Program-made: the position numbers and the translations under genes
Shown: positions 1 to 51,606 of the stretch, one piece after another
Numbering within the stretch: position 1 is the stretch's first letter
How the letters are laid out: each line of letters starts with the position of its first letter
Source of the DNA: a virus
IMG/VR virus record: IMGVR_UViG_3300034280_001042
Location: 1-64,000 of that record
Length of the DNA: 64,000 nucleotides
Reading direction: 5' to 3' (one strand)
Notes under the pieces: generated by a model
Seen by the model: the letters and a program-made list of their open reading frames with translations, nothing else
The model's database searches: none
What the model was told of the DNA's origin: nothing

Positions 1-282
1 ACTACTACCGGAGGAACTACTACTGGAGGTACAACTACCGGAGGTATAACAACTGGCGGAATTACAACTGGCGGAATTACAACTGGAGGAACTACTACCG
101 GCGGAACAAATGCTGACGGCACACCAGCAGTTCCAATAACTGGAGGAACTACTACTGGAGGTACAACTATCGGTGGTACAACGACCGGAGGAATTACAAC
201 TGGTGGAACTACTATTAATGGAATAACAACTGGAGGAACCACTATAGGAGGTATAACAACTGGAGGAACAACCACTGGAGGA
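1..282 (+). repeat. 15-bp tandem repeats coding for (T/I)TTGG
   Basis: In the frame of the host gene the DNA reads as about 16 five-residue units (TTTGG, ITTGG, TTIGG, one degenerate TTING), interrupted once by TNADG plus TPAVPITGG at bases 106-147. The third codon positions vary between copies, so the array is old enough to have diverged at the DNA level while the peptide is kept. The array probably continues before the window. It gives a flexible Thr/Gly stalk. Confidence 0.9.
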
Positions 283-2451
283 ACTACCACAAGCAAAAAC
301 CCACCCTCGTGTAACGGTTTAAGCAATAATAGTCTTGTAGGAGTTAACCTAAGTGGCGCTAATCTTAGCGGTTGCAGTGTTACCAATAGCGATTTTATGA
401 ATACTAATTTCGATAGCTCTAATGCGGATGGAATAAACGTTGGAAATAGTAATTTAACTAATACTAATTGGGATAATGGAAATATTAATAATAGCTCTTT
501 CGATAACTCTAATTTAAGCAACACTTCTTTTGATAATACAAATTTTAATAGTACTGTTTTCCATAACGCAAATGCGATAAATAGTAATTTTAAAAGCTCA
601 TCTTTAATCAATAGTAATTTTATTGATAGTAATTTTGATGATAGTAATTTTGATAATAGTAGTCTAAATTTTACTGCTATAAACGATAGCTCAATCAACA
701 ATGTTTCATTTGATAATAGCTTCATAAATAATAGCAATATAAACAACATTTCTTTGAAGAATAGCAGTTTTCAAGACACCTCAATCACAAATAGTTCAAT
801 CAATAACAGCACGGCGACATCGTCGAATTGGAGTAATTCGGACTTTAGTAATACGTCTATTACAGATTCTGAATTTTCTGATACTAATTTTAGCAATGCT
901 AATATTGGTAATGAATTGTCAAATATCACTTCTCAGCGTATTGTACAAATTAATTCTTCTGAGGCTAATATATTTAGCAGTCCAGATACATCTTTAAAAA
1001 TTACTGGAGTTAATTTAGAAACATCGGATTCTGTCAATATAATATTAAGAGATAAAAATAATCAACCAATTAATGTTTCCAGTTTTATCGTAGGTTCTGA
1101 TAATGATATTACTTTATTTGGATTAGACTTGAGTAAAGTAACCGGCCCAATCACCGCTCAAGTTTCTAATGAGAATAGCACAACTTCTGCTGTTCAAGTT
1201 GCAAATGTCGTATCAGATAATACTCCGTCTTCTGTTTTAACTCCCAATATTCCACAGAATATAGCCACTAATGGTAATGTTTTCCAAATTAATGGAAATG
1301 GATTTACAACAGAATCTATCCCACTACTGAAAACCAGCAATAATATACCATTAACTAATTTTACTTTTACGGTCGATTCTCCCAATCTGATAACAGTTTC
1401 TCTTTCCGAACTACCAGCCATTGACACTACAATAGTAGGTCAAGTTAATACTAATAATACATTAAGCAATTCTTCTACTCTAGGAAAGATATCTACACAA
1501 GCTATACCAGCTTCTGTTACTCCAAGTTTTTCTATAATTAATAATCAAACAGCAATTATTAATGGTTCAAATTTTTCTAATAGTAATAATATAGTCCAAT
1601 TATTTACTAAGACTAATGAAATATTGGTTCCGTTAGATATAATTTTAACGAATAAGTCAGGACTACAAGGTGTTGCATCGAACACAGACAAGACACAACT
1701 GACCGTTCAATTAAAAGAAGTTATTCCTCAGGGACCCATATTTGCTATAGTTTCCTCTAATGGAATTCTTTCAGAAAAGGATCCTGTTCAAATAGGAATT
1801 GTTAATTTTAATCTGCCAACAACATCAACTTTCTCAGGATCTGGATCAACAATAACTATTACTAGTCCAAATCATGGATTCTCGATAGGAGATAGTGTTA
1901 ATCTTGACTTTATTAGTGGGTCGATCACAAACGATGGCAACTTTAAGATAATAGCTATTAGCAAAAATACCTTTACAATAATAAACGACAAAGCAGTAGG
2001 TAATACCACAGGTAGTGTGAATATCGAAGGACGCATAGATGGTACTACTGTCATAGATAATAGAACAAAAATTATTCTTTCTAATTTCATATCTTCGTCA
2101 TTCAATGGAGCATCACTAGTTAATACTGTTTTATTTGGATCCTCATTTATTAATAGCGATTTTCAAAATAGTAATTTTATTAACACTGAAATTAATGAAT
2201 CTAATTTTACAAATGCTGATTTCAGAGGAGCTAATCTATCAGAAGCTATTATTATAGATTCTATATTTTGTGGTGTTATTTATGATAGTACTACCATATG
2301 GCCTAAAAACTTTGATGTTATTGCTGCTACGAGGTGTGATGGTAGTTTTTCTCCAACTAAAAAGCCAACTCCTCTGATTGATGGGGTTGGGGGTATTTGG
2401 AGAGCGTCTACTCTGGATCTAAAAGAGCAAAAAGAAGAAGATATTCAATAA
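1..2451 (+). CDS. Pentapeptide-repeat surface/appendage protein, 5' partial
   Basis: The reading frame is open from the first base of the window, so the gene begins upstream; the first in-frame ATG (397) lies inside the repeats and is not a convincing start. Order of parts: TTxGG tandem repeats (bases 1-282), a short Cys-containing linker, a long run of pentapeptide-like repeats rich in N-x-(N/S)-F and A-N-L (about bases 330-930), a middle region of beta-rich segments with IPT/TIG-like look (motifs such as ITGVNLET and INGNGFT), then a second pentapeptide block (about 2090-2270) ending in SNFTNADFRGANL and a Trp/Cys tail. Pentapeptide repeats fold into a right-handed square beta-helix. An extracellular fibre or adhesin role is inferred from this architecture and from the following Thr-Pro-rich propeller gene. 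No enzymatic motif is visible. Confidence 0.8.
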   Translation, partial: TTTGGTTTGGTTTGGITTGGITTGGITTGGTTTGGTNADGTPAVPITGGTTTGGTTIGGTTTGGITTGGTTINGITTGGTTIGGITTGGTTTGGTTTSKNPPSCNGLSNNSLVGVNLSGANLSGCSVTNSDFMNTNFDSSNADGINVGNSNLTNTNWDNGNINNSSFDNSNLSNTSFDNTNFNSTVFHNANAINSNFKSSSLINSNFIDSNFDDSNFDNSSLNFTAINDSSINNVSFDNSFINNSNINNISLKNSSFQDTSITNSSINNSTATSSNWSNSDFSNTSITDSEFSDTNFSNANIGNELSNITSQRIVQINSSEANIFSSPDTSLKITGVNLETSDSVNIILRDKNNQPINVSSFIVGSDNDITLFGLDLSKVTGPITAQVSNENSTTSAVQVANVVSDNTPSSVLTPNIPQNIATNGNVFQINGNGFTTESIPLLKTSNNIPLTNFTFTVDSPNLITVSLSELPAIDTTIVGQVNTNNTLSNSSTLGKISTQAIPASVTPSFSIINNQTAIINGSNFSNSNNIVQLFTKTNEILVPLDIILTNKSGLQGVASNTDKTQLTVQLKEVIPQGPIFAIVSSNGILSEKDPVQIGIVNFNLPTTSTFSGSGSTITITSPNHGFSIGDSVNLDFISGSITNDGNFKIIAISKNTFTIINDKAVGNTTGSVNIEGRIDGTTVIDNRTKIILSNFISSSFNGASLVNTVLFGSSFINSDFQNSNFINTEINESNFTNADFRGANLSEAIIIDSIFCGVIYDSTTIWPKNFDVIAATRCDGSFSPTKKPTPLIDGVGGIWRASTLDLKEQKEEDIQ

Positions 2452-2490
2452 ATCTCTACGGTGTATTTGATTAATAGGAGTTAACTTAAT

Positions 2491-3990
2491 ATGTCTAGTA
2501 GCAATAATATTCCAAATATCGTTTTTGGTAGCGGTATAAACTTTCGCATAAACGCTGCGGGAAATAAGCCTCTACCATCACAAGAGAATTTTGCTCAACA
2601 AATCTTACCTGAAATCGGATTATTTTTTACTCCAACTCCGACTCGCACTCCAACAGTTACTCCAACATTAACTCCTACTATTACCCAAACTCCGACTGGG
2701 GCAACAAAAACCCCCACCCCCACCGCTACAAAAACTCCAACTCAAACAGCATCACAAACAAGAACCCCCACACTAACTCCTAGCGTTACTAGAACAAAAA
2801 CCCCAACCCCAACAGTTACTCCAACTCGAACGATTACTCCAACGATTACTTCAACTGTAACTATTAGTCCAACAGTTACTACTAGTCCAACCCCAACTAG
2901 AGACTGTATTTTAGGAGACAACTTCAGTAGCTACTCATTACCTGCAATCACAGATTGGAAAGACATAACTTATGGCAATAATACTTATATTATTATAGAA
3001 AGTATTAATGCGACATTAGTTAGTTTAGATGCTCGCAATTGGACTCTGGGAGAAGGACTTCCATATTCTGGTCCTAATGCTTGGCAGAGTATCACTTATG
3101 GTGCAGACAATAGGTTTGTGGCTGTTGGATCGTCTCCAAAATCAGCAATCAGTAACGATGGATCAACTTGGGTGGCTGGAAATAATATCATGCCAATAGT
3201 TGCTGTATCTGGTTCAGGTACGCCTCCACCCGTAGAGAATTACACATGGAATCAGATTATATATTCTGAAGAAATACAAAAATATCTAGCAGTTTCTAGT
3301 TCGAGTAATCGATCTACAGCTTCTAGAATAGCTATTAGTAGCGACGGGATCACTTGGACAAGTAACCCCCTACCTACAGCGCCATCTTTCAGCGGTGCTC
3401 CAACAAATAAAAATTGGCTAACCATAGCTTATGGGGCCAATTATTTTGTTGCGGGTAGCGATTCGTCTTTTGGAGATGGTACCATAGAGACAGATTATGA
3501 TCCATCGATAGCCACGAGTACAGATGGTGTTGTATGGACACTAAGATCAATAGGGTCTTCAACAAACTGGAACACTAATAACATAGGAAATATTAAAAAG
3601 ATAGTATATGGTAATGGTAATTTTGTAGCTATTGCACAGGGGAATATAACTGTGGGAAGCTCAGTGAGAGGTTGTTGTCGCGTATTTATAAGCTCTAATG
3701 CTATCAACTGGAACTTGGTTGCAACAATACAAGGATCAAATAGCAACTTGGTATTCGGATCACCTAATTCTTTGGGTATGAGTAAGTTTTTGCTTTTAGT
3801 TAGAAATATTACTACTGGAGATAATGATATTTACTATAGTATGACTGGTTCTGGATGGACGATTTTAAGCTCTCTAGAATCTACAGCTTTTGATATTTCT
3901 AGTATTCAAAGCTTAAATGGTCAATTTATAGCAATTAATCAATCAACAGTTTATTTAGCAGACAATTGTCCTGGAGGATTTTCTCAATAA
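2491..3990 (+). CDS. Thr-Pro linker + beta-propeller appendage protein
   Basis: 499 residues. An N-terminal anchor-like segment (1-46) is followed by a Thr-Pro-rich linker (47-137) of TPT/TPTxT type, then a C-terminal region built from about five repeats with the pattern W-x-x-I-x-Y-G-(N/A)-x-x-F-(V/I)-A-(V/I) followed by S-x-D-G-x-x-W. Such Asp-box/BNR-like repeats form beta-propellers, often in carbohydrate-recognising proteins. A TAGGAG ribosome site precedes the ATG. The same linker plus propeller occurs in the gene at 7997, so the two are modular relatives. Tail fibre, head fibre or adhesin is the likely role by inference; sialidase catalysis is not supported because no full active site is recognisable. 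Confidence 0.75.
   Translation: MSSSNNIPNIVFGSGINFRINAAGNKPLPSQENFAQQILPEIGLFFTPTPTRTPTVTPTLTPTITQTPTGATKTPTPTATKTPTQTASQTRTPTLTPSVTRTKTPTPTVTPTRTITPTITSTVTISPTVTTSPTPTRDCILGDNFSSYSLPAITDWKDITYGNNTYIIIESINATLVSLDARNWTLGEGLPYSGPNAWQSITYGADNRFVAVGSSPKSAISNDGSTWVAGNNIMPIVAVSGSGTPPPVENYTWNQIIYSEEIQKYLAVSSSSNRSTASRIAISSDGITWTSNPLPTAPSFSGAPTNKNWLTIAYGANYFVAGSDSSFGDGTIETDYDPSIATSTDGVVWTLRSIGSSTNWNTNNIGNIKKIVYGNGNFVAIAQGNITVGSSVRGCCRVFISSNAINWNLVATIQGSNSNLVFGSPNSLGMSKFLLLVRNITTGDNDIYYSMTGSGWTILSSLESTAFDISSIQSLNGQFIAINQSTVYLADNCPGGFSQ
2629..2901 (+). repeat. Thr-Pro linker repeat
   Basis: Low-complexity coding repeat of ACT/ACN-CCA units giving TPT, TPTV and TPTR peptides (residues 47-137 of the host protein). 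It is similar to the two linker blocks at 8882-9205 and 9353-9913, which makes these places candidates for recombination between the genes. Confidence 0.9.
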
Positions 3991-4026
3991 TTATAATGGT
4001 GTATTAATATAAGGAATAAAAAAACT

Positions 4027-4257
4027 ATGAACACTTTAAATCATACCACTATCACAATCGATAATAGATGTTTAGATATACTATTAACAGAACAAGAAAT
4101 AGAAATAGCATTCGAGAGATCCATAAAAGAAGAAAATAGATCTTTTATAGATATCAATAAGTGCTGTAAATGCTGGCCTACTAATAAACCACCAGAATGT
4201 GGATTTTGGAAAAAAATCCTAGGTTTATGTGTTAAATGTAATTGTTCATGTAACTAA
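4027..4257 (+). CDS. Small Cys-rich protein, unknown
   Basis: 76 residues, acidic N-terminal half (LTEQEIEIAFERSIKEE) and a Cys-rich C-terminal half with CCKCW, PPECG, LCVKCNCSCN. The nine cysteines suggest metal binding or disulfides, but no known zinc-finger spacing is clear. It lies between the propeller gene and a run of small membrane proteins in the same direction. No function assigned. Confidence 0.6.
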   Translation: MNTLNHTTITIDNRCLDILLTEQEIEIAFERSIKEENRSFIDINKCCKCWPTNKPPECGFWKKILGLCVKCNCSCN

Positions 4258-4278
4258 TATAAATTAAGGCTTATAGCT

Positions 4279-4596
4279 ATGAGCGAAACCATTATTCATT
4301 TCTGGGAAAATATTGCAACAACCAGTATTGGCATTATTGTCACAATGGTAGGGTTTTGGGTGGCTATTGGTAGAAATATGGCTACTAAAGCAGAAGTTTT
4401 AGTTATGATAGAAACTCAAAGTCCATATAACCATGATAAACAGTTTATTATGGAAAGACTTAACAGCAATAAAGAAAGTCAAGCAGCATTTGCATTAGCT
4501 TTGCAAAGAAATACTGAAGTAATGACAGAGTTAAAAATTCAAATAGCAACACTTGGTAAAACCTTAGAAGCCCTAGAAGACAGAATAGAAAGGTAA
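4279..4596 (+). CDS. Small membrane protein with coiled coil
   Basis: 105 residues. One hydrophobic segment near the N-terminus (about 14-33, TSIGIIVTMVGFWVAIG), then a charged helical part with heptad character to the end (LKIQIATLGKTLEALEDRIER). Single-TM plus coiled-coil proteins of this size occur in phage lysis and tail modules, but the family is not recognised. Ends three bases before the next start, so the two are probably translated together. Confidence 0.6.
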   Translation: MSETIIHFWENIATTSIGIIVTMVGFWVAIGRNMATKAEVLVMIETQSPYNHDKQFIMERLNSNKESQAAFALALQRNTEVMTELKIQIATLGKTLEALEDRIER

Positions 4597-4599
4597 TTT

Positions 4600-4800
4600 A
4601 TGGCAAATGATATAAATAAAGCAATTAGTGCTAATCAGATAAAAAACGGAACAACCGTTGTCACAACAACAGTTGCAGGAGAGTATTCAACAATAGATAC
4701 ATATGCTAAAAATAGTCCAACAATTAATGATATTCAAGCCAAATATGATAATAGATTCTATAATGGTATTTTTGTTAATGTAATTGCTAGTGGTATTTAA
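4600..4800 (+). CDS. Small hypothetical protein
   Basis: 66 residues, Thr/Asn/Ile-rich, no TM segment, no cysteines. It starts four bases after its neighbour's stop. Composition resembles small beta-rich virion decoration or tail proteins, but there is no motif to back this. Confidence 0.5.
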   Translation: MANDINKAISANQIKNGTTVVTTTVAGEYSTIDTYAKNSPTINDIQAKYDNRFYNGIFVNVIASGI

Positions 4801-4833
4801 TAAAATAATCACATAATTGGAGAAAATAAATCA

Positions 4834-5160
4834 ATGGTCAAACCCGGCTATAGAACCAGTGAATTCTGGTTTACTTTTGTCAGTTTTATATTTAGTGGAT
4901 TATACCTAATTGGCTTATTGGATAGTAATAGTCAAAAAGAAAATTTAATCGAAGAAACTAGCAGAGGATTAGAAGCTACTATCCTTATTATAGGACAATT
5001 AATGGTATTGTTCAAATATGTTAAAGGAAGAACTGATCTTAAAAAGACTTGGTGGAGCACAGCAACACCAGAAGAAAGAAAAGAAGCTAATAAAAAGAAT
5101 AGTCAACCGCTAAGAAAAAAGAGAAAGAAAAATGCAAACCCAAAACCTATCAGTAAATAA
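4834..5160 (+). CDS. Putative holin-like membrane protein
   Basis: 108 residues with two predicted membrane helices (about 11-29 and 49-67, LEATILIIGQLMVLFKYV), a short negatively charged loop between them and a strongly basic C-terminal tail (KKRKKNANPK). Two helices, a short loop and a charged tail fit class II/III holins. The opening GYRTSEFWFT is reminiscent of small phage/prophage membrane proteins beginning KTTEFW, some of which are annotated as holins (from memory). TGG-AGAA ribosome site upstream. Overlaps the next gene by 29 bases. Holin is a guess from topology and context. Confidence 0.45.
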   Translation: MVKPGYRTSEFWFTFVSFIFSGLYLIGLLDSNSQKENLIEETSRGLEATILIIGQLMVLFKYVKGRTDLKKTWWSTATPEERKEANKKNSQPLRKKRKKNANPKPISK

Positions 5161-5557
5161 TCTTGGGAATCTAGTAATTAAAGCTAAAGAAATACTAAAT
5201 AGTGCTAAAGCAGTAGCCATGCCACAAGCATGGAATATTTTACAACTAGCTACAGCAGAAGTTATTCAGAGCATAGAAGATAATAGTCCCTCTCTGAGAG
5301 GGGCCGATAAAAAAACATTGGCTATGACTATGATTTCTAACTTTTATGATCAAGTATTTACAATAATAAATTTTCCATTTGTTCCACAGATTTTACAACC
5401 TATTATACAGAAGTATGTGAAACAAATTCTCATGCTATTGGTTAGTGCGACTATTGATGCTTTAGTTACCACTTTTAGAAATAGTGGAGTTTTTGTTGAT
5501 CCAAGCACTAAGGTTGATCCTGTTGTTGATAATACTCCAAAAGTTTCAGATAAATAA
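5132..5557 (+). CDS. Hypothetical helical protein
   Basis: 141 residues, mainly helical, with an amphipathic to hydrophobic stretch at about 93-112 (YVKQILMLLVSATIDALVTTF) and a short C-terminal tail of VDPVVDNTPK. The PKVDPVV-type tail also appears in the next gene, suggesting related membrane-associated partners. No known family recognised. Confidence 0.5.
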   Translation: MQTQNLSVNNLGNLVIKAKEILNSAKAVAMPQAWNILQLATAEVIQSIEDNSPSLRGADKKTLAMTMISNFYDQVFTIINFPFVPQILQPIIQKYVKQILMLLVSATIDALVTTFRNSGVFVDPSTKVDPVVDNTPKVSDK

Positions 5558-5571
5558 ACAAGGAAAACAAA

Positions 5572-5973
5572 ATGAATTTTACAGAGAGCTTCCAAGAATT
5601 TAGTAGTCGTTTGAGCACAACGGATTTGGCTCTTTATGCTGGTGCTGGCATTATTATCTGGGTATTGTTTAAGGATAGACTAAGCCCAGTTCAACAATTA
5701 ATTACTTCATTAGTTGAAAAAGTCAAGGGTATAACAAAAGGAAATACTGTTACATTACCAACTGTTGATGTTCCCAAAGTTGATCCAGTAGTATTACCTA
5801 AAGTAGTCGGAGAGAATAAGGACGATGTGTTTTTTAAGCTTGTAGTATCATGGAAACAAACTCGTGATCTAGCAGAAAAGAGTGGTTGTGCCGAGGCTAT
5901 TAAGGTTGCTGATCAAATGTTTCCGTTTCTAAGTCCTAATGTGTGCTCTAAAAAAGAGGATAAAGTAGTATGA
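5572..5973 (+). CDS. Single-pass membrane protein, unknown
   Basis: 133 residues: one N-terminal membrane helix (about 18-33, LALYAGAGIIIWVLF), a Val/Pro-rich linker (TLPTVDVPKVDPVVLPKVV), then a small soluble helical domain with two cysteines (SGCAEAIK and SPNVCSK). AAGGAAAA site upstream; its stop overlaps the next start (ATGA). Part of a four- to five-gene membrane block before the protease. Confidence 0.55.
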   Translation: MNFTESFQEFSSRLSTTDLALYAGAGIIIWVLFKDRLSPVQQLITSLVEKVKGITKGNTVTLPTVDVPKVDPVVLPKVVGENKDDVFFKLVVSWKQTRDLAEKSGCAEAIKVADQMFPFLSPNVCSKKEDKVV

Positions 5974-6464
5974 AAAATAATAACCTATTACTGGTAGTAG
6001 CTGGTTTACTTATTCTGGTTGGCTTAACCAAGTTTGATCTATCAAGACTCAACATTCTACCAAACAAACCTAATGCTGTTGATGTTCTAGAATTACCAGA
6101 ACCAACAGACTCAGCTGTTAAAAAAGAAGCAGATGACGTTGTCTCAGTACTAAAAGAATCTGGAGCAAAAGGCGATGCTAAAAGATTACGAGATTTATAT
6201 CTTGATCTAGCAAAACTTGTTGAGCTTGATGGAGAAAACGAGGTGGTTAGAAATACTGAAGAAATTCGTCAAGCCAATAGTTTGGCTGGTGTTATGCTTA
6301 GACTAGATATTAAGGGTAAGTATCCTGATCTAGCTAAAGAAGCAAAAGAAGTGGTAGTAGCAGCTATTGGAGACGATCAAATTCTTTTATCTAAAGAGCT
6401 AAGGGCTAAGGCCGTAGAAGGTCTTAATGCTTTAGCTTGGGCTTGTAATATGGGGTCAAAATAA
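5970..6464 (+). CDS. N-terminally anchored helical protein, unknown
   Basis: 164 residues. N-terminal hydrophobic anchor (about 4-21, NLLLVVAGLLILVGL) with a KN start, then a long acidic helical domain, probably exported or on the outer side of the membrane. The shape resembles inner-membrane spanin subunits, but also many other phage membrane proteins. Overlaps both neighbours by one to four bases, which ties it to the downstream protease. Confidence 0.55.
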   Translation: MKNNNLLLVVAGLLILVGLTKFDLSRLNILPNKPNAVDVLELPEPTDSAVKKEADDVVSVLKESGAKGDAKRLRDLYLDLAKLVELDGENEVVRNTEEIRQANSLAGVMLRLDIKGKYPDLAKEAKEVVVAAIGDDQILLSKELRAKAVEGLNALAWACNMGSK

Positions 6465-7387
6465 TGGCTAGACTCTCTCCGAAAGAATTATACGATAATT
6501 ATCGTAAGGGATTTAGTGGATGCGTCTGGGAAGAGCATGTGTTCAATCATTTGATGGAAACTTCCAAGTATCCATTATTTGGTGATGCTAGTAAAAAAAT
6601 TAGTGGCAGCGGTAAGGGTAAACTATCAACACCATACAAGAGTGTGTTAAAGTTTGATAAACATCCTTATAATGAAAGACAAACCACTGGGGATTGTGTT
6701 AGTCATGGAACACGAAATGCTTGTGATGTTTCACGAGCAGTAGAAATAGATGTGCATAATGAAAGAGAGGATTGGATAGCAAGGGGTGCAACAGAGGCTA
6801 TCTATGGATATAGAGGATTTAGTGGACAGGGCATGAGTTGTGCCAGAGCAGCTGAGTTTGTCAGCAAGATTGGTGGTCTTGTAGTAAGAAAAAATTATGG
6901 TTTTGTAGATTTCAGTAAATACAATGGTAATTTAGGTGCTGGTTGGGGAGGTCGAGGACTCCCAGACAAAGTACTAGATCTAGCAAATGACCATCAAATC
7001 AAGACCGCCTCATTAATACGAACAGTAGAAGAAGCTAGAGATGCTTTGGCTAACGGTTATGGTTTAGCAGTATGTTCTAACTATGGTTTTAGTAACACTA
7101 GAGATAAAAAGGGATTTGCTAGACAGTCTGGTTCTTGGGCGCATTGTATGGCTTGGATAGCTTGTGACGATACTAATGGAGAACCAGCATTTCTAGTACA
7201 AAATAGCTGGGGAAAATGGAATGATGGTGGTCATCCAGAATGGGGTCCAATTCCTGATGGTTCATTTTTAATTCATTCTGATGTTGCTCAGGGTATGTTG
7301 AGTCAAAACGGATCATATGCTTTTAGTGGTTTTGATGGATTCCCTCTTCAAAAACTACCAAGCTACGGATTTGATGACTATTTGTAG
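6464..7387 (+). CDS. Papain-like (C1-type) cysteine protease
   Basis: 307 residues. The catalytic layout of C1 peptidases is visible: nucleophile Cys78 in TTGDCVSHGT, His227 in SWAHCMAW and Asn247 in VQNSWGKW. Gly-rich segments between them fit the papain fold. No signal peptide and no inhibitor-like prodomain is obvious, although the first 70 residues could serve as one. Its start overlaps the preceding stop by one base (TAATG). It follows four small membrane proteins, so a lysis, virion-entry or protein-processing role is possible. Family assignment is strong, role is inference. Confidence 0.85.
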   Translation: MARLSPKELYDNYRKGFSGCVWEEHVFNHLMETSKYPLFGDASKKISGSGKGKLSTPYKSVLKFDKHPYNERQTTGDCVSHGTRNACDVSRAVEIDVHNEREDWIARGATEAIYGYRGFSGQGMSCARAAEFVSKIGGLVVRKNYGFVDFSKYNGNLGAGWGGRGLPDKVLDLANDHQIKTASLIRTVEEARDALANGYGLAVCSNYGFSNTRDKKGFARQSGSWAHCMAWIACDDTNGEPAFLVQNSWGKWNDGGHPEWGPIPDGSFLIHSDVAQGMLSQNGSYAFSGFDGFPLQKLPSYGFDDYL

Positions 7388-7496
7388 AGTTAATTTTCAC
7401 TTATCGATATAATCTCCACTATTTCTGGCCAAAAATGCATTAGTGGTATTTGGTGTATCATAATATGTTACTACCCTATTATACGAGATTATTTCT

Positions 7497-7691
7497 ATGA
7501 GACTAATAGACAGAATAGCTTTAAATAGAGCTATACATATGCTGTTAGGGTTTATCTTGTCTGTATTAAAGATGTTTGAAAAAAACAATCCAGAAAATAA
7601 ACCAGACGATTCGATTAAACCAAAACCACAAAAAAGAAAAAGACTAAAAGACTTGGTAGACAACATACTACCATGGAGAGAACAAAAATGA
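7497..7691 (+). CDS. Small basic membrane-associated protein
   Basis: 64 residues with one hydrophobic segment (about 12-26, IHMLLGFILSVLKMF) and a Lys/Pro-rich C-terminal half. It is preceded by a 109-base gap that contains a TATAAT at 7408 without a good -35 and the recurring GGTGTAT word at 7452. Stop overlaps the next ATG (ATGA at 7688). No family recognised. Confidence 0.5.
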   Translation: MRLIDRIALNRAIHMLLGFILSVLKMFEKNNPENKPDDSIKPKPQKRKRLKDLVDNILPWREQK

Positions 7692-7984
7692 ATAAATTAT
7701 TTATTAGTCTATTTTGCATTAGTTTATTGTTTTCTGAAGGAAGGTATTACGGCTCAACAACAGCTTCGGTAACTCTTGCTGGTGGAATTATTAAAGCTAA
7801 GCATTCACAAGAAATTACTACAAAATACAAGAGAAAAGATTGTCCAGTATGTAAGGGTAAAGGATGGTATATGAGTGGAGACAATATCAAAAAAATTGAT
7901 TGCAATTATTGCGAACCAGACAACTCAGCACCACTCTCTTCTAAAATAGACCCTAATTGTAAAACTCATATCAAACGCAACTAG
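7688..7984 (+). CDS. Exported small protein with DnaJ-like CxxCxGxG motif
   Basis: 98 residues from the ATG at 7688 (an in-frame ATG at 7673 adds five residues but spoils the signal-peptide start). N-terminus MNKLFISLFCISLLFS looks like a signal or lipoprotein-like peptide. The second half has CPVCKGKGW and, 18 residues on, CNYCEPD, a zinc-binding pair resembling half of the DnaJ Cys-rich domain. Probably a secreted metal-binding protein; function unknown. Confidence 0.6.
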   Translation: MNKLFISLFCISLLFSEGRYYGSTTASVTLAGGIIKAKHSQEITTKYKRKDCPVCKGKGWYMSGDNIKKIDCNYCEPDNSAPLSSKIDPNCKTHIKRN

Positions 7985-7996
7985 GATTCTGTTATA

Positions 7997-10762
7997 ATGC
8001 CAACATGTAATAGTGCTAATTATAATCTATCAGCAAACTGGAATGGTGTTGTAGGAAATCTTACTTCTGTTGGTACTAATGGAAGTCCCAGCTATTATGA
8101 TACCTATGACCAGTCAGGATCTTTATACGAATGGAATGATTCTATTATTGGGTCCAATAGAGGATTAAGGGGTGGTAGCTGGACAGACTCTACTGTTAGT
8201 AATTTGTCAAAATCATATAGATTTTCTTTTTTGCCTAACGCTAGATTAACTACTGTTGGATTTAGAATAGCTACAATCAATGATGATCGTCAATACAGCA
8301 CCTTTGTAACAGTAGCTAATATTGCTAATGCAGCTGATAGCACAACATATGGTTCTGTTGGATATACATATAAAATACAAAAATATTTAGTTACTAATAC
8401 TGAGTATACGGAATTTCTAAATGCTATAGGTATGACAGATACCTATGGACTGTATTCAGCAACATATATGGGCACAGAAAGCAGAGGAGGTATTGCTAGA
8501 GGAGGATCCAATGGAAGTTATGTATATGCTGTTAAAACTAACATGGGAAATAAACCAGTATACTATATATCTTGGTTTAATGCTGCTAGATTTGTAAACT
8601 GGTTGCATAATGGAAAACCCAGTGGTGCTCAAAATTCATCCTCAACAGAAGACGGAGCATACACCCTCAATGGAGCTATATCTGGATATAGTTTTACAAA
8701 AAATATCTCAGCTAAATATTGGATTCCAACAGAGAACGAATGGTATAAAGCAGCTTATTATGATCCATCTTTGAATACAGGATCGGGTGGATATTACTCT
8801 TACTCAACACGTAGCAACAGCTCCCCAGATTCCGTAACAGCATCTTCAATCGGAGATGCTATATTGCCAATTGGTTGCATAACACCTACTCCAACAGCAT
8901 CTTTCACACCATCTCCTACAAAAACTCCAACTAATACACCGACCAATACAGCAACAGTAACTGCTTCACAAACTAAAACGCCATCGGCAACTCCTACATT
9001 CACACCAACTCCAACAATAACGGCTTCTGTAACGCCAACTGTTACTAAAACTCAAACAACTACCATTACTCCAACAAGAACCGTTACTCCAACACATACT
9101 GCAACCAGTTCTTTAACTCCTTCAATCACTCCAACAAATACAAAGACTCCAACAGCTACTAAAACTAGTACTCCAACAACCACAGTATCTCCGACACCAT
9201 CCAAGTCTTTATGTGATTCTTTAAAACTAGGACAACTAATTCTAAATGAAGCACTATACAATACAAATGACATTACTATATTATATAACGGATTTGTATT
9301 AAGGGGCATAATTGATGATCCCATATTTAGCTTAAGAGAACCTCCAAATGTAACGCCTACAAGAACTCCCACGGTTACTCCTACAAATACAGCAACTCCT
9401 ACGGTTACTCCTACAAAGACTGCAACCCCAACTCTTACCACCAGTTTAACTAATACTCCAACAGCAACAACAACACCTACTAAGACTCCAACACAAACTC
9501 AAACCAGTACAACAACTCCAACAAACACAATAACCCCAACAGTAACGACGACACAAACTCAAACCACAACACAAACAATAACTCCTACAGTTAGTGTTAC
9601 ATCTACTAGTACCTTAACTCCAACTCCTACTAATACTATTACCTCTACTAATACTGTAACTCCAACAAATACTAATACTCAAACAAATACTGGTTCTCTA
9701 ACACCAACTCCCACACTAACAGCTACTACAACTCCTACTATAACTCCAACAAACACTGAAACTCCTACTATAACTCCAACTAGCACTGTTACTCCAACTA
9801 ATAGTACAACTCCAACTAATACTATTACGCCTACAAATACAGCTAGTCAAACCCCAACAAACACAATAACTCCGACATATACAAGAACACCAACTCCAAC
9901 TCCAACTAATCCAATACCAGCTTCATTCGTAGCAGTTGCTTTTAATTCAGACACTGTTGCAACTTCTAATAATGGAATTTCATGGAATAATTATACTTTA
10001 CCAGGATCTAAATATTGGACAGATATAGAATATGGTAACGGAGTATTCGTATCTTGTCCTTATACAGATGCTGTGGGAGCCAAATCTACCAACATTTCTA
10101 GTTGGACCAACCAATCTTTAGGCTCGGCCTCTAATTGGATCAATATAATTTATGGTAATGGTATTTTTGTTGTTATGTCTCAAACTGGTAATACTCAAAT
10201 TTACTCTAGTACCACAGATACATGGTCTTCATCTTCTTTACCTTCTCTGGGTGTTGGTTCAATATGGAAGTGTGGAGCATATGGTAATGGTGTCTACGTT
10301 GCATTGTCCTCTACAAATAATCTAGCCACGTCAAACAATGGAACCAGTTGGAGTCAATCTACATTACCTTCTACTGGGGACTGGCAAGCTATTACATATG
10401 GCAATAATAAGTTTGTAGCAATTGCAAATAACTCTGATAAAGCCATATATTCCAGTAATGGTACAGATTGGTCTGCTAGTACCCTGCCATCTGTCGCCTA
10501 TTGGTCTAGTATAGCTTATGGTAATGGTAAATATGTGGCAGTTGCAAATGATTTTGGTTATGTCGCAGTTTCTTCTGATGGAGTTAATTGGACTCAATAT
10601 GCTTCTCTGTGGGGCCTATGGCAAGGTATCTCTTATGGAAATAACATATTTGTAACTGTTGGTTTTGGTTCAACTACGCTAACGTCAACAAATGGAATAA
10701 CCTGGACTCAAAGAACAATGGTCGGTCGAGATTGGTCAGCAATTACATTTAGAAACGATTAA
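7997..10762 (+). CDS. Appendage protein: permuted FGE-like domain + Thr-Pro linkers + propeller
   Basis: 921 residues. Residues 1-92 match the C-terminal half of a formylglycine-generating-enzyme-type (SUMF1, C-type-lectin-like fold) domain: GSLYEWND, RGLRGGSW, VGFRIA. Residues about 100-285 match the N-terminal half of the same kind of domain: YKIQKYLVTNTEYTEFLNA, PVYYISWFNAARFVNWL, YWIPTENEWYKAAYYDP. The order is therefore reversed relative to the usual family. Then come a Thr-Pro linker (296-403), a short unique segment (404-452), a second linker (453-639) and about seven YGNGxFVAV / SxNGxxW propeller repeats (640-921). Likely a receptor-binding or decoration fibre; catalysis is unlikely. 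Confidence 0.75.
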   Translation: MPTCNSANYNLSANWNGVVGNLTSVGTNGSPSYYDTYDQSGSLYEWNDSIIGSNRGLRGGSWTDSTVSNLSKSYRFSFLPNARLTTVGFRIATINDDRQYSTFVTVANIANAADSTTYGSVGYTYKIQKYLVTNTEYTEFLNAIGMTDTYGLYSATYMGTESRGGIARGGSNGSYVYAVKTNMGNKPVYYISWFNAARFVNWLHNGKPSGAQNSSSTEDGAYTLNGAISGYSFTKNISAKYWIPTENEWYKAAYYDPSLNTGSGGYYSYSTRSNSSPDSVTASSIGDAILPIGCITPTPTASFTPSPTKTPTNTPTNTATVTASQTKTPSATPTFTPTPTITASVTPTVTKTQTTTITPTRTVTPTHTATSSLTPSITPTNTKTPTATKTSTPTTTVSPTPSKSLCDSLKLGQLILNEALYNTNDITILYNGFVLRGIIDDPIFSLREPPNVTPTRTPTVTPTNTATPTVTPTKTATPTLTTSLTNTPTATTTPTKTPTQTQTSTTTPTNTITPTVTTTQTQTTTQTITPTVSVTSTSTLTPTPTNTITSTNTVTPTNTNTQTNTGSLTPTPTLTATTTPTITPTNTETPTITPTSTVTPTNSTTPTNTITPTNTASQTPTNTITPTYTRTPTPTPTNPIPASFVAVAFNSDTVATSNNGISWNNYTLPGSKYWTDIEYGNGVFVSCPYTDAVGAKSTNISSWTNQSLGSASNWINIIYGNGIFVVMSQTGNTQIYSSTTDTWSSSSLPSLGVGSIWKCGAYGNGVYVALSSTNNLATSNNGTSWSQSTLPSTGDWQAITYGNNKFVAIANNSDKAIYSSNGTDWSASTLPSVAYWSSIAYGNGKYVAVANDFGYVAVSSDGVNWTQYASLWGLWQGISYGNNIFVTVGFGSTTLTSTNGITWTQRTMVGRDWSAITFRND
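8882..9205 (+). repeat. Thr-Pro linker repeat, first block
   Basis: Coding low-complexity repeat with TPT, TNTPTNTATVT and TKTPTAT units, residues 296-403 of the host protein. Same repeat style as 2629-2901. Confidence 0.9.
9353..9913 (+). repeat. Thr-Pro linker repeat, second block
   Basis: Coding low-complexity repeat of TPTNT, TPTVTPT and TQTQTTT units, residues 453-639. Nearly every second residue is Thr, giving a long extended stalk before the propeller. Confidence 0.9.
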
Positions 10763-46213: not shown

Positions 46214-47247
46214 TCACATACTTTCGAAGTAGTTCATATAATACCCACAGTCTTTGTGAGCAACAATATTTTATTGAATATGTTCTTGGATGGAGAGGTC
46301 CGTCTGGTCAAAAGGCCGATAAAGGAACTATTGTCCATAAGGTTTTAGAAATTTTAGCTGTCATTAAAAAAGGACAGCAAGACGGTATGACCGAAATAGA
46401 CGATGATGTAGTTGGCCATATTGATGTGAATAATTATAATCTGGATACTATCACACAAAAAGTATACAAGCACTACACAGAGAGATCTCCGCATCACAAG
46501 TGGGCACCTAAAGACTATAAGGATTGTCATTCCTGGGTTTATAAGGCAATCGAATTAAATAATGGCATGTTTGATCCTAGAAATCGTAATATTTTAATGC
46601 CAGAACAACATTTTGATTTTGAAATAAAAAAACCATGGTCTAAATACTCTTATAATCTTACAGACGGTTCTGTATTAGAGGGTAATTTGGCCATGAAAGG
46701 TACTATTGATTTAATAACTCTTGTTAATAAAGATACTATCGAGGTAATTGACTGGAAAACAGGTAAAAGATTAGACTGGGCAACGGGACAAGAAAAAACC
46801 CAAGAAAAGCTTGAGAACGATCCACAACTAAGAATTTACCACTATGCCATTAAACACTTATATCCTGATATTAAAAACATTATATTCTCTATCTATTTTA
46901 TTAATGATGGTGGACCTTTTTCTATTTGTTTTCATGATAGCGATATTGCTGAAACAGAAAATATACTTCGTAGAAAATTTGATATAATAAAACAAACTAC
47001 TAAACCTAAACTTAATAAGTCTTGGATGTGTAGTAAACTGTGTCATTTTGGTAAGACTACTTTTGCTAATACTAGTATCGAACCTGTTATCGAGTATAGA
47101 AATGGTCAGTTGTGCTCAAAGGACACGACCATGACAAAGTGCGAACAAATAAAACACGATCTAGACTTATATGGAATCGACGCTACTATAGGGCTATACA
47201 AGCACCCGAATCACTCCTTTGGATCATACAAAGCTCCCGGAACATGA
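46207..47247 (+). CDS. Cas4/RecB-like PD-(D/E)xK nuclease, non-canonical start
   Basis: 346 residues if started at ATT 46207; the first in-frame ATG (46387) would remove the whole conserved N-terminus TYFRSSSYNTHSLCEQQYF and KGTIVHKVLE. The catalytic core has Asp168 (KGTIDLI) and D182-W-K184 in EVIDWKTGK. Cys17 plus Cys275 and Cys279 (WMCSKLC) and Cys303/Cys312 are placed like the four Fe-S ligands of Cas4 and AddB. Likely a 5'-3' or 3'-5' ssDNA exonuclease in recombination, or part of the polymerase operon. Stop overlaps the dnaE start (ATGA). Confidence 0.75.
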   Translation: MIITYFRSSSYNTHSLCEQQYFIEYVLGWRGPSGQKADKGTIVHKVLEILAVIKKGQQDGMTEIDDDVVGHIDVNNYNLDTITQKVYKHYTERSPHHKWAPKDYKDCHSWVYKAIELNNGMFDPRNRNILMPEQHFDFEIKKPWSKYSYNLTDGSVLEGNLAMKGTIDLITLVNKDTIEVIDWKTGKRLDWATGQEKTQEKLENDPQLRIYHYAIKHLYPDIKNIIFSIYFINDGGPFSICFHDSDIAETENILRRKFDIIKQTTKPKLNKSWMCSKLCHFGKTTFANTSIEPVIEYRNGQLCSKDTTMTKCEQIKHDLDLYGIDATIGLYKHPNHSFGSYKAPGT

Positions 47248-49109
47248 AACAATACATCCCTTTGCATGTACATTCTCATTATAGTCTTATGGATGGTCTT
47301 AGTAAGCCAGCTCAAATAGCAACTAGATGTGCTAAAATTGGAGTTCAATCTTGTGCTATTACTGATCATGGATCTATTTCTGGAACAGTACAGTTTTATC
47401 AAGCACTTAAGAAACAAAAGATAAAACCAATACTAGGTTGTGAGCTATATATTTCTAAAGACAATAGTTCATTAAAAGTCAAAGAAAATAGCAAACTAAG
47501 TCACTTTTTAGTTTTGGCTAAAAACTATGCTGGGTGGAAAACCTTGATTAATATTGTTTCAGAATCTAACTCAGAATCTAACTTTTATCATAAGCCAAGA
47601 CTAGACTTTAAAACACTATCCAAGCTATTAGATGGTAATATTATAGGATTTTGTGGTCATTTGGGATCCAGTCTAGCTAATCTAATTCAAGAATCCACAG
47701 ATTCCATAGAAAAGTCTGGCACAGAATTCATTGCTCAAATGAAAGATATTTTTGGTCAAGACAATTTCTTTCTAGAAGCACAACTAATGGATAGAGAGTA
47801 TTCTAAAGAACAAATAGAAATGACAGAGCATATTAGAAGGCTTGGTCAAATAACTAATACTAAAGTAATCTGTACTCCAGATGCCCATTATTGTGAAAAA
47901 GAAGACGCTATTGATCAACGCATATTACTATGTAATAATCTTAAAACAACACTAATTGATGTCAATAAAAAAATTCTTAACGATGAATCTGTAGCTATGG
48001 ATTGTTTTTTTAAGTCAGATAATTTCCATATTCTAAGTCCAGAAGAAATGGCAAGTCTACATACAGACGAAGAAATAGAAAATACTAACTATGTAAATTC
48101 ATTATGTGAAGAATACGATATTCTACACAAACCTCTTCTTCCAGAATTTAAATGTCCGCCAAACTTTAATCCCGACGAATATCTAAGAGAACTATGTCGT
48201 AAAGGATGGAGAGAAAAAATAGATAAGCAAATAGCTAAAGAAGACCATCAACAGTATGTAGATAGAATCAAATTTGAACTAGAAATCTTACAAGGTGCCG
48301 GATTATCTAGTTACTTTTTAATTGTGCAAGATATTGTTAATCTCGTTAGATCTAAGGGTTGGTTGCCGGGTCCGGGTAGAGGTTCTGCTGCTGGATGTTT
48401 AGTATCATATCTAATCGGAATCACGTCTATCAATCCTATAAAGTATGATTTGATCTTTGAAAGATTTTATAATGCTGGTAGAAACACATCAGACCATATC
48501 TCTATGCCAGATATTGATGTTGACGTACCCATTAATAAAAGAGAACAGATTATCTCATATATTAAAAACAAGTATGGTCACGATAAAGTATCTCAAATGA
48601 TTACATTTAATACTATGAAGGGTCGAGGAGCCCTAAAAGAAGTATTAAGAGTCTATGGTAATATTAGTTTCGACGAAATGAACCGTATAACTAAATACAT
48701 TCCGGATGAAGCTAAAATTGCAGACGAACTACAAGAGATGAAAGAAGATACTGGAGAAGCATCAATTATTCGATGGGCCTTAGAAAATAATGTTGACAAA
48801 CTCAAAGAATGGTGCTATATATCTGAAGACAATACACTAGCAGGCCCTCTTGCTAAAAGATTTGAACAAGCTATACGTTTAGAAGGAACAAAATCTAACC
48901 AATCGAAACATGCTGCTGGTGTAGTTATTAGTAGCGAAAATCTAAAACTTGTTTGTCCTATGATATATGATTCTAAGAACAAGCAGTCGATTGCTGGTAT
49001 GGAGATGCAAGATTTAGAAAGCCTTGGCGTGATTAAATTTGATATTCTTGGTATAGCTATGTTGGATAAAATTATGACTATAACAGATATCCTTAAAAAT
49101 GGAGAATAA
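47244..49109 (+). CDS. dnaE-n: DNA polymerase III alpha subunit, N-terminal fragment (split DnaE)
   Basis: 621 residues from the ATG at 47244 (ATGA overlap; a longer form from 47112 would add residues that lie in the nuclease gene). PHP domain: HVHSHYSLMDG (8-18) and a later PDAHYC. Palm: GRGSAAGCLVSYL, then catalytic D423 and D425 in PDIDVDVP and D600 in IKFDILG, matching E. coli D401/D403/D555. The chain ends 21 residues after D600. No intein or splice junction is seen at the end (KNGE stop). Confidence 0.85.
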   Translation: MKQYIPLHVHSHYSLMDGLSKPAQIATRCAKIGVQSCAITDHGSISGTVQFYQALKKQKIKPILGCELYISKDNSSLKVKENSKLSHFLVLAKNYAGWKTLINIVSESNSESNFYHKPRLDFKTLSKLLDGNIIGFCGHLGSSLANLIQESTDSIEKSGTEFIAQMKDIFGQDNFFLEAQLMDREYSKEQIEMTEHIRRLGQITNTKVICTPDAHYCEKEDAIDQRILLCNNLKTTLIDVNKKILNDESVAMDCFFKSDNFHILSPEEMASLHTDEEIENTNYVNSLCEEYDILHKPLLPEFKCPPNFNPDEYLRELCRKGWREKIDKQIAKEDHQQYVDRIKFELEILQGAGLSSYFLIVQDIVNLVRSKGWLPGPGRGSAAGCLVSYLIGITSINPIKYDLIFERFYNAGRNTSDHISMPDIDVDVPINKREQIISYIKNKYGHDKVSQMITFNTMKGRGALKEVLRVYGNISFDEMNRITKYIPDEAKIADELQEMKEDTGEASIIRWALENNVDKLKEWCYISEDNTLAGPLAKRFEQAIRLEGTKSNQSKHAAGVVISSENLKLVCPMIYDSKNKQSIAGMEMQDLESLGVIKFDILGIAMLDKIMTITDILKNGE

Positions 49110-49297: not shown

Positions 49298-49988
49298 TTT
49301 TCAAAAATTTTGTGTGTTCGATTTAGAGACAGATGGTTCTAATCCAGATGTCTGTAGTCCAGTACAAATTGCTGCTGTGATTATAGATCCTTTTAGATTA
49401 GAAATAGTGAAAGATTCAGAGTTTAATATCACACTAAAACCAGCAGCTTTGGAAGAAAAAGAAGAATACGCCTATGAAGATAGCGATGTTCTTGATTTTC
49501 ATGCCAAAGTAAGGGGGTGCGCTAAAGACAAGATTCTATCAGATTGGCATTCTTATCAGAAACAAGAGCATGGATGGAAGATGTTTGTATCTTACCTAGA
49601 TATGTATCATACAAGGTCCGATAGAAAATCTTGCTTTAGTGCCCCTATTGCTGCTGGATATAATATTAACAGATTCGACTTAAAAATCATAGATAGATTA
49701 AGTCAGAAATATAAGAACATCAATAAGGAAGGAAAATCCAGTCTTTTTTATCCAAGAGACGTTGTGGATTTAATGAATGTTGTATTTTATTGGTTCGAAG
49801 GTAATAACGAACTCAAAAATTACACACTAGACCATGTAAGAGATTACTTTGGTTTAAGCAAAGAAGGTTCACATGATGCTCTTAAAGATGTTAAAGACAC
49901 AGCAGAGCTTTTGATTAGGTTTATGAGACTATTTAGGAACACATCATCTAAGGTAAAATTTAAAGGATCGTGTACAGCAAATGGCTGA
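49290..49988 (+). CDS. DnaQ-like 3'-5' exonuclease (proofreading)
   Basis: 232 residues. Exo I D11-x-E13 in VFDLETDG, Exo II in AGYNINRFDLKII, Exo III H-x4-D in GSHDALKDVKDT: the DEDDh set. The chain is about the length of epsilon subunits. Found between the two pieces of the polymerase and overlapping the C-terminal piece by eight bases, so it is very likely their proofreading partner. Confidence 0.8.
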   Translation: MANFQKFCVFDLETDGSNPDVCSPVQIAAVIIDPFRLEIVKDSEFNITLKPAALEEKEEYAYEDSDVLDFHAKVRGCAKDKILSDWHSYQKQEHGWKMFVSYLDMYHTRSDRKSCFSAPIAAGYNINRFDLKIIDRLSQKYKNINKEGKSSLFYPRDVVDLMNVVFYWFEGNNELKNYTLDHVRDYFGLSKEGSHDALKDVKDTAELLIRFMRLFRNTSSKVKFKGSCTANG

Positions 49989-51606
49989 GTATTATACTTT
50001 TGATTGCGGTTGTAAATTTCCTGTTATTTCTCAGTCTGGTGAATTCCCTAAAATTGATTTTACTCCAAATGTAGAGAATCTAAATTTAGATTGCCAAAGA
50101 ACATGGGAACTGATATCAGAAGGAAATACAAAAGGTTGTTTTCAGCTAGAGTCTAGGTTAGGCCAAACGATGGCCCGTAAGCTTAAACCAGAAAATATGG
50201 AACAGCTATCTGGTCTGATCAGTATTCTTAGACCAGGATGTTTGGAAGCCTATAGAGATGGCAAAAGCGTATCTAATCACTATATAGATAAAAAGAATGG
50301 ATCTGAGTCAATTGACTTTTTCCATCCTGCTCTTGAAGAATCTTTAAAGAGTACCTACTCAGAAATGGTCTACCAAGAACAGGCTATGCAAATCTCACAA
50401 AAAATTGCGGGATTTGATCTTCAAGAAGCCGATATGTTAAGAAAAGCTATTGGGAAAAAGAAACCAGAAGAAATGGCTAAGGTTAAAAAGAAATTCATTG
50501 AGGGAGCAAAAAAGGTTAAAATTGTTGACGAATCTGAAGCAGAAGAGATTTTCGGTTGGATAGAAAAATCTCAGAGATATAGTTTTAATAAGTCCCACGC
50601 GATTTCATATGCTATTAATGCTTATATGTCAGCATATGCGAAAGCACACTTCCCAAGAATCTTTTTTGCATCATATCTAAGATTTGCTAAAGACAAAATA
50701 GATCCTCAACAGGAAATAAAAGAGCTGGTTAGAAATGCAACCGAAATGGATATTATTGTTTCTATTCCAGATATACGATATCTAAACGAATTCTTTATTC
50801 TCAAGAATAAGATTATTTATTTTGGATTAACAGATATCAAAGGGGTTGGTCAATCTGTCTTTAAGAAGATATTAAGCTTAACAAAAGAAATAGACCTCAA
50901 AACCGCAACATGGCTACAAATCCTAACTCAACTACTGCTCAATATTAATTCAACAGCAAGTAAAGCATTGATCTCTGCTGGGGCTTTGGACTATTTAAAA
51001 AAGAATAGAACAGAGATGCTATTTGAATATGATATATGCTCTTCTTTAACTAAAAAAGAATTACAGCTTTTAATGGAAATAATATCAGAAAGCAATCCCA
51101 AGAACCTCAAAGAAGCATTAGGTTCTATGTTGTTAATCAAAAAAGTGACTAAAAATAGGCAACCTAATATTCAAGCTTTAATTCAGTCTATAGATAAACC
51201 TCCATATTCTTTGCTAGATAAAATTGAGTGGTTATCTGACTCTGAGAATTCTTTACTTGGCACAGCAATAACCTGTTCCAAGCTGGATACTTATGATACT
51301 AGTATGTCAAACTGTAACTGTAAAACATTTAAAACTACTTTTACCAAAGAAAATATTGTTTTAGCTGCCGAAATTAGTAATATCAATATTACCAAAACCA
51401 AAAACGGTAAAAATCCAGGACAAGAAATGGCCTTTCTCACAATTGAAGATCAGTACGGAGTATTGGATTCTGTTGTCTTTTTTCCAGAACAATTAGCTAA
51501 ATATAAACATCATTTATTTGTTGAGAATATTCTCGTTTTTGTAGGAAATAAAAGCAAGACCAAAGACGGTCTTATAGTAGAAAAATGTTTCATCCCAGTC
51601 ACTTGA
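49981..51606 (+). CDS. dnaE-c: DNA polymerase III alpha subunit, C-terminal fragment (split DnaE)
   Basis: 541 residues. After a 45-residue N-terminal extension with DCGCKFPVI it continues at TWELISEGNTKGCFQLESRLGQ, which matches the fingers region just after the palm in unsplit DnaE, then ISILRPG, MVYQEQAMQI, FNKSHAISYAINAY, the helix-hairpin-helix FGLTDIKGVGQSVFKKIL and an OB-fold ending (LTIEDQYGVLDSVVF). All the parts that the N-fragment lacks are here. Its TGA is inside the -35 box of the ssb promoter. Confidence 0.85.
   Translation: MAEYYTFDCGCKFPVISQSGEFPKIDFTPNVENLNLDCQRTWELISEGNTKGCFQLESRLGQTMARKLKPENMEQLSGLISILRPGCLEAYRDGKSVSNHYIDKKNGSESIDFFHPALEESLKSTYSEMVYQEQAMQISQKIAGFDLQEADMLRKAIGKKKPEEMAKVKKKFIEGAKKVKIVDESEAEEIFGWIEKSQRYSFNKSHAISYAINAYMSAYAKAHFPRIFFASYLRFAKDKIDPQQEIKELVRNATEMDIIVSIPDIRYLNEFFILKNKIIYFGLTDIKGVGQSVFKKILSLTKEIDLKTATWLQILTQLLLNINSTASKALISAGALDYLKKNRTEMLFEYDICSSLTKKELQLLMEIISESNPKNLKEALGSMLLIKKVTKNRQPNIQALIQSIDKPPYSLLDKIEWLSDSENSLLGTAITCSKLDTYDTSMSNCNCKTFKTTFTKENIVLAAEISNINITKTKNGKNPGQEMAFLTIEDQYGVLDSVVFFPEQLAKYKHHLFVENILVFVGNKSKTKDGLIVEKCFIPVT

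Follow-up and report, generated by a model that had tools for sequence, protein, structure and literature searches.

Known FGE-type domains and the window protein

The FGE-sulfatase/SUMF1 type (PF03781) includes formylglycine-generating enzyme (FGE), SUMF2, EgtB, PvdO and CarF. Both halves of the phage domain described here are homologous to this type and its predicted elements are the same, but the halves are in reversed order and the catalytic cysteine pair is absent. DGR variable proteins with an FGE-type C-type-lectin (CLec) fold, such as TvpA (2Y3C), Mtd and TaqVP, are also related. TvpA is the best structural neighbour of the phage domain, whose most variable segment, between GGSW and GFR, is the equivalent of the variable region (VR) of these proteins. 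The VR is located at the C-terminus of the domain in DGR variable proteins, whereas the first third of the permuted domain contains its equivalent, and the phage record differs from DGR systems in that no reverse transcriptase (RT) or template repeat was found. Canonical FGE-like domains are carried by Planctomycetota, Verrucomicrobiota and others, some of them in tandem (NCNC, N and C being the N- and C-terminal halves), and share up to 58% identity with the permuted domains. Unlike the CN order of the phage, the order was N-C throughout the best 80 of 351 cellular relatives (NC in 73 ORFs, NCNC in 17 and NCNCNC in 2, plus fragments), and no CN order was found among these 80. Tentaclins, which are phage receptor-binding proteins, have an N-terminal C-type-lectin-fold domain on a multi-domain adhesin like the window protein, but they differ in their DUF6273-like C-lec domain, their Ig stalk and their DGR-driven variation, and the paper on them makes no mention of permutation (PMC10743442).

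The window, that is, the whole stretch of DNA analysed, is the first 64,000 bases of a virus record of 91,971 bp. It contains an ORF of 921 amino acids that bears the predicted permuted FGE-type domain at its own N-terminus (Table 1). The frame opens at 7985, with an in-frame stop just 12 nt ahead of the ATG. The C-terminal repeat region of the protein gave a weak EPTP match, just under the Pfam cut-off.

Three other features of the window were recorded. The neighbour protein at 2491-3990 has a Thr/Pro-rich stalk and a YGN-repeat region as in the 921-aa protein, without the permuted domain. A pentapeptide-repeat protein is encoded at 1-2451, in a frame that begins with a long TTGG-type repeat at the start of the record. 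A DNA polymerase III alpha-like enzyme is apparently split between 47112-49109 and 49981-51606 with other ORFs in between, the PHP/NTPase part being on one ORF and the finger part on the other.

Table 1. Features of the 921-aa ORF and its N-terminal domain (window positions).
Feature	Residues and signatures	Position	Strand	Basis
ORF, predicted permuted domain N-terminal	921 aa	7997..10762	+	ORF list/translation
C-terminal half of FGE-type domain, placed first	6-93; YEW, GGSW, VGFR	8012..8275	+	profiles
Hypervariable segment, DGR variable-region equivalent	63-86; from GGSW to VGFR	8183..8254	+	alignment
Junction linker, canonical C-terminus to canonical N-terminus	9 residues	8276..8302	+	
N-terminal half of FGE-type domain, placed second	~103-282; YKIQKYLVTNTEY, WIPTENEWYKAA motifs	8303..8842	+	profiles
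Thr/Pro-rich stalk 1		8879..9199	+	sequence
Small segment separating the two stalks		9200-9334	+	
Thr/Pro-rich stalk 2		9335..9913	+	sequence
C-terminal repeat region, probable beta-propeller	YGNG repeats	9914..10759	+	

Order of the two halves

The PF03781 score of the whole 921-aa protein was 47.3 bits at a cut-off of 23.3, a significant family match. Positions 156-254 of the profile (C-half) matched nt 8033-8272 with an E-value of 6e-4, and positions 36-126 (N-half) matched nt 8366-8767, after the C-half, with an E-value of 6e-11. The two halves do not follow each other in N-to-C order along one continuous match; the C-half precedes the N-half. Half-profiles of the phage family gave the placement shown in Table 1 with E-values of 1e-35 for the C-half and 5e-77 for the N-half; these profiles include the window sequence, and the independent E-values are those of Pfam. 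Profile positions 1-88 and 2-179 were covered, which means that both halves are complete. No further piece of either half was found by a read-through profile search in six frames of the window, and there is therefore no hidden N-half upstream and no final C-half downstream. Hidden flanking halves, or a frameshift, were ruled out by the same search.

The original prediction had located the half markers at 7997-8870 and described their order as the reverse of that in the known family. Its coordinates and markers were accurate by Pfam and half-profile placement, and the Pfam matches given above confirm the order. A complete first copy upstream, which it had named as a sign of an assembly artefact, was not found in any of the six frames, and dozens of assemblies have the same order, as described below.

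Predicted structure

AlphaFold2 (AF2), run with 43 permuted sequences, predicted a single compact domain with pLDDT 95.1 and pTM 0.93. The model begins with strands 44-51 and 54-58, helix 67-70 and strand 76-78, followed by two strands (103-106, 125-128), two helices (134-144, 155-160), two strands (166-169, 176-179) and two helices (193-204, 246-254). The structural control was L066, a canonical phage relative and not the same chain as the permuted domain. Its model has two strands (7-10, 29-32), two helices (38-48, 59-62), two strands (70-73, 80-83), two helices (97-108, 157-165) and, at the end, strands 232-236 and 244-248, helix 256-259 and strand 265-268. The main secondary-structure series of the permuted model is the L066 series rotated; a short helix (118-122) is present in L066 only.

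Foldseek alignment follows chain order. When searched against PDB, the permuted model had its best match to TvpA (E 0.073, 103 columns, TM 0.24) and was aligned with FGEs over just 41-76 columns. The canonical control was aligned from end to end; its best E-value was 8.7e-12 over 325 columns, 77 hits were obtained at E<=0.001, and TvpA and FGEs were aligned over ~310-360 columns with E-values from 1e-7 to 1e-11. The sequence profile of the permuted family matched CarF and SUMF2 chains in swapped order; with 5aoh, query 181-266 was aligned with chain 79-165 and query 31-94 with chain 199-263. A structure search of BFVD gave no usable match.

Strands beta1 and beta5, at the two ends of the chain, run antiparallel in the FGE subtype (PMC6328139). 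Because these strands are adjacent, a 9-residue linker can join the old termini. The halves are complete, the old termini are joined, the opening lies in a former loop and the unit is autonomous, as in a circular permutant, and the AF2 model has the same elements as the FGE-type C-type-lectin fold in one packed domain. As modelled, residues ~6-285 of the 921-aa protein would almost certainly form one folded domain, a circular permutant of this fold. The original prediction, which had proposed a true circular permutation as one of two readings and had named halves that do not pack together as its refutation, was largely right on this reading: AF2 gave one compact and confident domain, and dozens of assemblies are ordered alike.

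Cys4 (8006-8008) and Cys294 (8876-8878) are the only two cysteines near the domain and lie at its new termini. They could form a disulfide that staples the domain; the AF2 model ended at residue 290.

The same order in other phages

A second protein of the same record, located outside the window at 84,966-88,484 on the minus strand, also has the C-then-N order. It has diverged from the window domain (38-43% identity). The gene next to it, with a tape-measure PHROG match at E 1.3e-4, probably encodes the tape measure. When 2.9 million viral contigs were scanned, 75 loci were obtained, most of them with reversed order by profile typing, and some of the proteins hold several permuted copies. Dozens of viral contigs, assembled independently of one another, yielded 67 non-redundant permuted domains (<85% identity); relatives in other contigs are 38-60% identical to the window domain. 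A second, profile-based scan gave 270 viral relatives, and the order was reversed in all 78 of the 78 loci kept, many of the contigs being already among those of the first scan. Several permuted loci are on contigs >200 kb, and a 2021 survey reports no lectin-fold domain of this kind for the jumbo phages that it covered (PMC7824862). Using tblastn of the domain, no permuted relative was found at E 1e-5 in 50,697 deposited phage records.

The gap between C-half and N-half is mostly 7-21 aa in the permuted phage domains, with 39-300 aa in a few loci, while the N-half is usually separated from the next C-half by 77-810 aa or has no next C-half. The CN unit sits at the start, in the middle or at the end of ORFs, and the 315-aa ORF of locus L013 is almost nothing but this domain. 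The short gap, the distant or absent next C-half and the varied position indicate a unit. Judged by these sequence comparisons, CN is an evolutionary unit and not the chance middle of an array, and it is probably a folding unit as well.

Some loci have unusual arrangements. In L044, L051 and L059 (first ORF), ~270-300 residues lie between the C- and N-halves, at the old termini, and Pfam detected nothing beyond the FGE halves in this stretch. In L053 (ORF 1396-10584, aa ~838-1407), a loop in the N-half of a permuted CN domain apparently carries a whole canonical NC domain as an insertion. L012 (ORF 2-4399, aa 599-1170) has a canonical domain immediately after a permuted one; this canonical domain groups with Planctomycetota sequences, which suggests that it was acquired separately.

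The reversed order could in principle have been produced during assembly or sequencing, by mis-joining of a canonical or tandem gene in one contig. The contig is metagenomic, and paralogues and repeats can cause such mis-joins, but a diverged permuted protein is present in the same record, the order recurs in dozens of independent contigs at 38-60% identity to the window domain, and junction length is conserved. An artefact is refuted by the many independently assembled contigs, and its probability is negligible. Another objection concerns folding, since the halves might not fold together in one chain, being either remnants or, in an oligomeric fibre, swapped between chains. Homotrimers are common among phage adhesins, a swap is compatible with a monomer prediction, and the 39-300 aa between C- and N-halves in a few loci would also suit it. 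However, the monomer itself was modelled with high pLDDT and pTM, the L013 ORF encodes nearly this domain alone, and the linker, short and constant, joins strands that lie side by side in the canonical fold (PMC6328139). Halves that fold apart or swap are quite improbable, and a single-chain circular permutant remains the preferred reading.

Cellular relatives and origin of the permuted form

Many of the cellular tandem arrays have C-to-N linkers of 5-14 aa that match the phage junction; for example, GFRVARVPDPFMTVGDPGN resembles GFRIATINDDRQYSTFVTVANIAN of the window protein. For the trees, the halves were put in one register before alignment. In the IQ-TREE analysis (LG+C20, 92 domains), a single branch separated the permuted domains from the rest in 96% of bootstraps. 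The FastTree analysis of 187 domains agreed on the permuted group save for one intruder, the canonical L134, which is inside the permuted clade in FastTree and outside it in IQ-TREE. Trees of each half alone nearly recovered the group, with 3-4 misplacements. The other copy of this virus (L006) formed a long branch at the base of the permuted group in IQ-TREE, with weak support. From these trees the permuted form apparently arose once.

A second permutant, N2-C-N1, is present in two phages (L063, ORF 5779-8022, aa 74-377; L228, ORF 2926-4005, aa 31-346). The cut site is within the N-half, just ahead of the WIP...EWYKAA motif, and the form nests in the permuted clade. It retains the native N-to-C junction together with the permuted C-to-N junction, and their presence in the same chain suggests that there was a tandem intermediate. 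On this evidence the route with the best support is permutation by duplication, and cutting and rejoining of the domain would have happened at least twice. A canonical domain would have been tandemly duplicated and the outer halves then lost, leaving the CN form. New termini would have been opened in the stretch that joins the halves of canonical members, and the old termini joined by ~9 residues at low cost, because the canonical termini are adjacent antiparallel strands. Descent, duplication and transfer may then have carried the permuted form through large phages. The permuted domain taken together with this origin is very probable.

The original prediction had offered, as an alternative to permutation, the middle of a former tandem array. 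That idea stands in so far as the junction resembles a tandem-array linker, but it fails in that CN is a unit and not an accidental middle. The two readings fit one history, which would have ended in a stable, predicted single-domain permutant.

Function of the domain

Within the domain, variability peaks in the segment between GGSW and VGFR (3.02 bits compared with a mean of 1.65 in the 43-row alignment). A formylglycine-generating enzyme has two active-site cysteines in its C-terminal part (Cys336/Cys341 in human). The catalytic segment of the window copy has no Cys; a single Cys occurs in 6 of the 43 relatives and two in none. Partner domains in the permuted proteins of other phages are propeller, RCC1 and LamG domains, and no tail-attachment domain was recognised in the window protein. 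From its domain company and its variability, the domain is probably a non-catalytic module of an appendage that binds a ligand, either a receptor or a glycan. Its placement at the tip of the appendage, as in the original prediction, would be one possibility for a domain that is N-terminal in the chain. The permuted domain, lacking the Cys pair, would be mounted on Thr/Pro-rich stalks, with propeller and lectin-like domains as neighbours, and its GGSW-GFR segment would diversify for binding cell-surface receptors or glycans.

Other functions were weighed against ligand binding. The homology to PF03781 is clear, as would be expected of a working formylglycine-generating or related metalloenzyme, but the catalytic segment lacks cysteines in the window copy, no row of the alignment has two, and the segment coincides with the most variable part of the domain; moreover, the DGR variable proteins of the FGE type are regarded as binders that lack the triad (PMC6328139). 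An active FGE enzyme is ruled out by the missing cysteines, and enzymatic activity of any related kind is extremely unlikely. It is also very improbable that the domain is a DGR target, with a reverse transcriptase rewriting its variable segment. DGRs are known to use FGE-type CLec folds as a scaffold (PMC5006420), the hypervariable stretch corresponds to the VR, and the DGR protein TvpA is the closest solved structure; against this, neither RVT_1 (reverse transcriptase) nor a template repeat, that is, a second copy of the variable segment, was found in the 92-kb record, which is possibly incomplete, and the DGR target was rejected on that basis. A structural spacer or virion decoration with no receptor role would be compatible with the permutation and competes only as to function. 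The domain does occur in long proteins with multiple domains, some of which contain more than one copy, but its variability is concentrated in one segment and its partner domains are of ligand-binding types, which makes a spacer somewhat unlikely. Ligand binding is the function we favour.

Significance

Literature searches on permutation of the FGE or C-type-lectin fold, which covered open-access papers, returned unrelated work only, and neither Foldseek of PDB nor the deposited phage genomes yielded a naturally permuted form of the FGE/C-type-lectin fold. The original prediction that the arrangement is new agrees with these searches.

The results suggest that a lectin-type scaffold, known to tolerate massive variation in sequence, has also withstood cutting and rejoining in nature, at least two times. 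Likely intermediates are still visible, namely the canonical tandem arrays in cells and the re-permuted form with both junctions, so that permutation by duplication is directly testable on one family. It is possible, though doubtful, that serial permutation re-mounts the lectin-type scaffold on phage appendages: the NC, CN and N2-C-N1 forms coexist, NC even within CN, and each may change the attachment of the stalk relative to the binding face and hence the encounter with the receptor. Profile searches and sequential structure searches under-recognise permuted proteins; in large environmental phages, a class of domains that probably bind receptors is therefore likely to be under-annotated.
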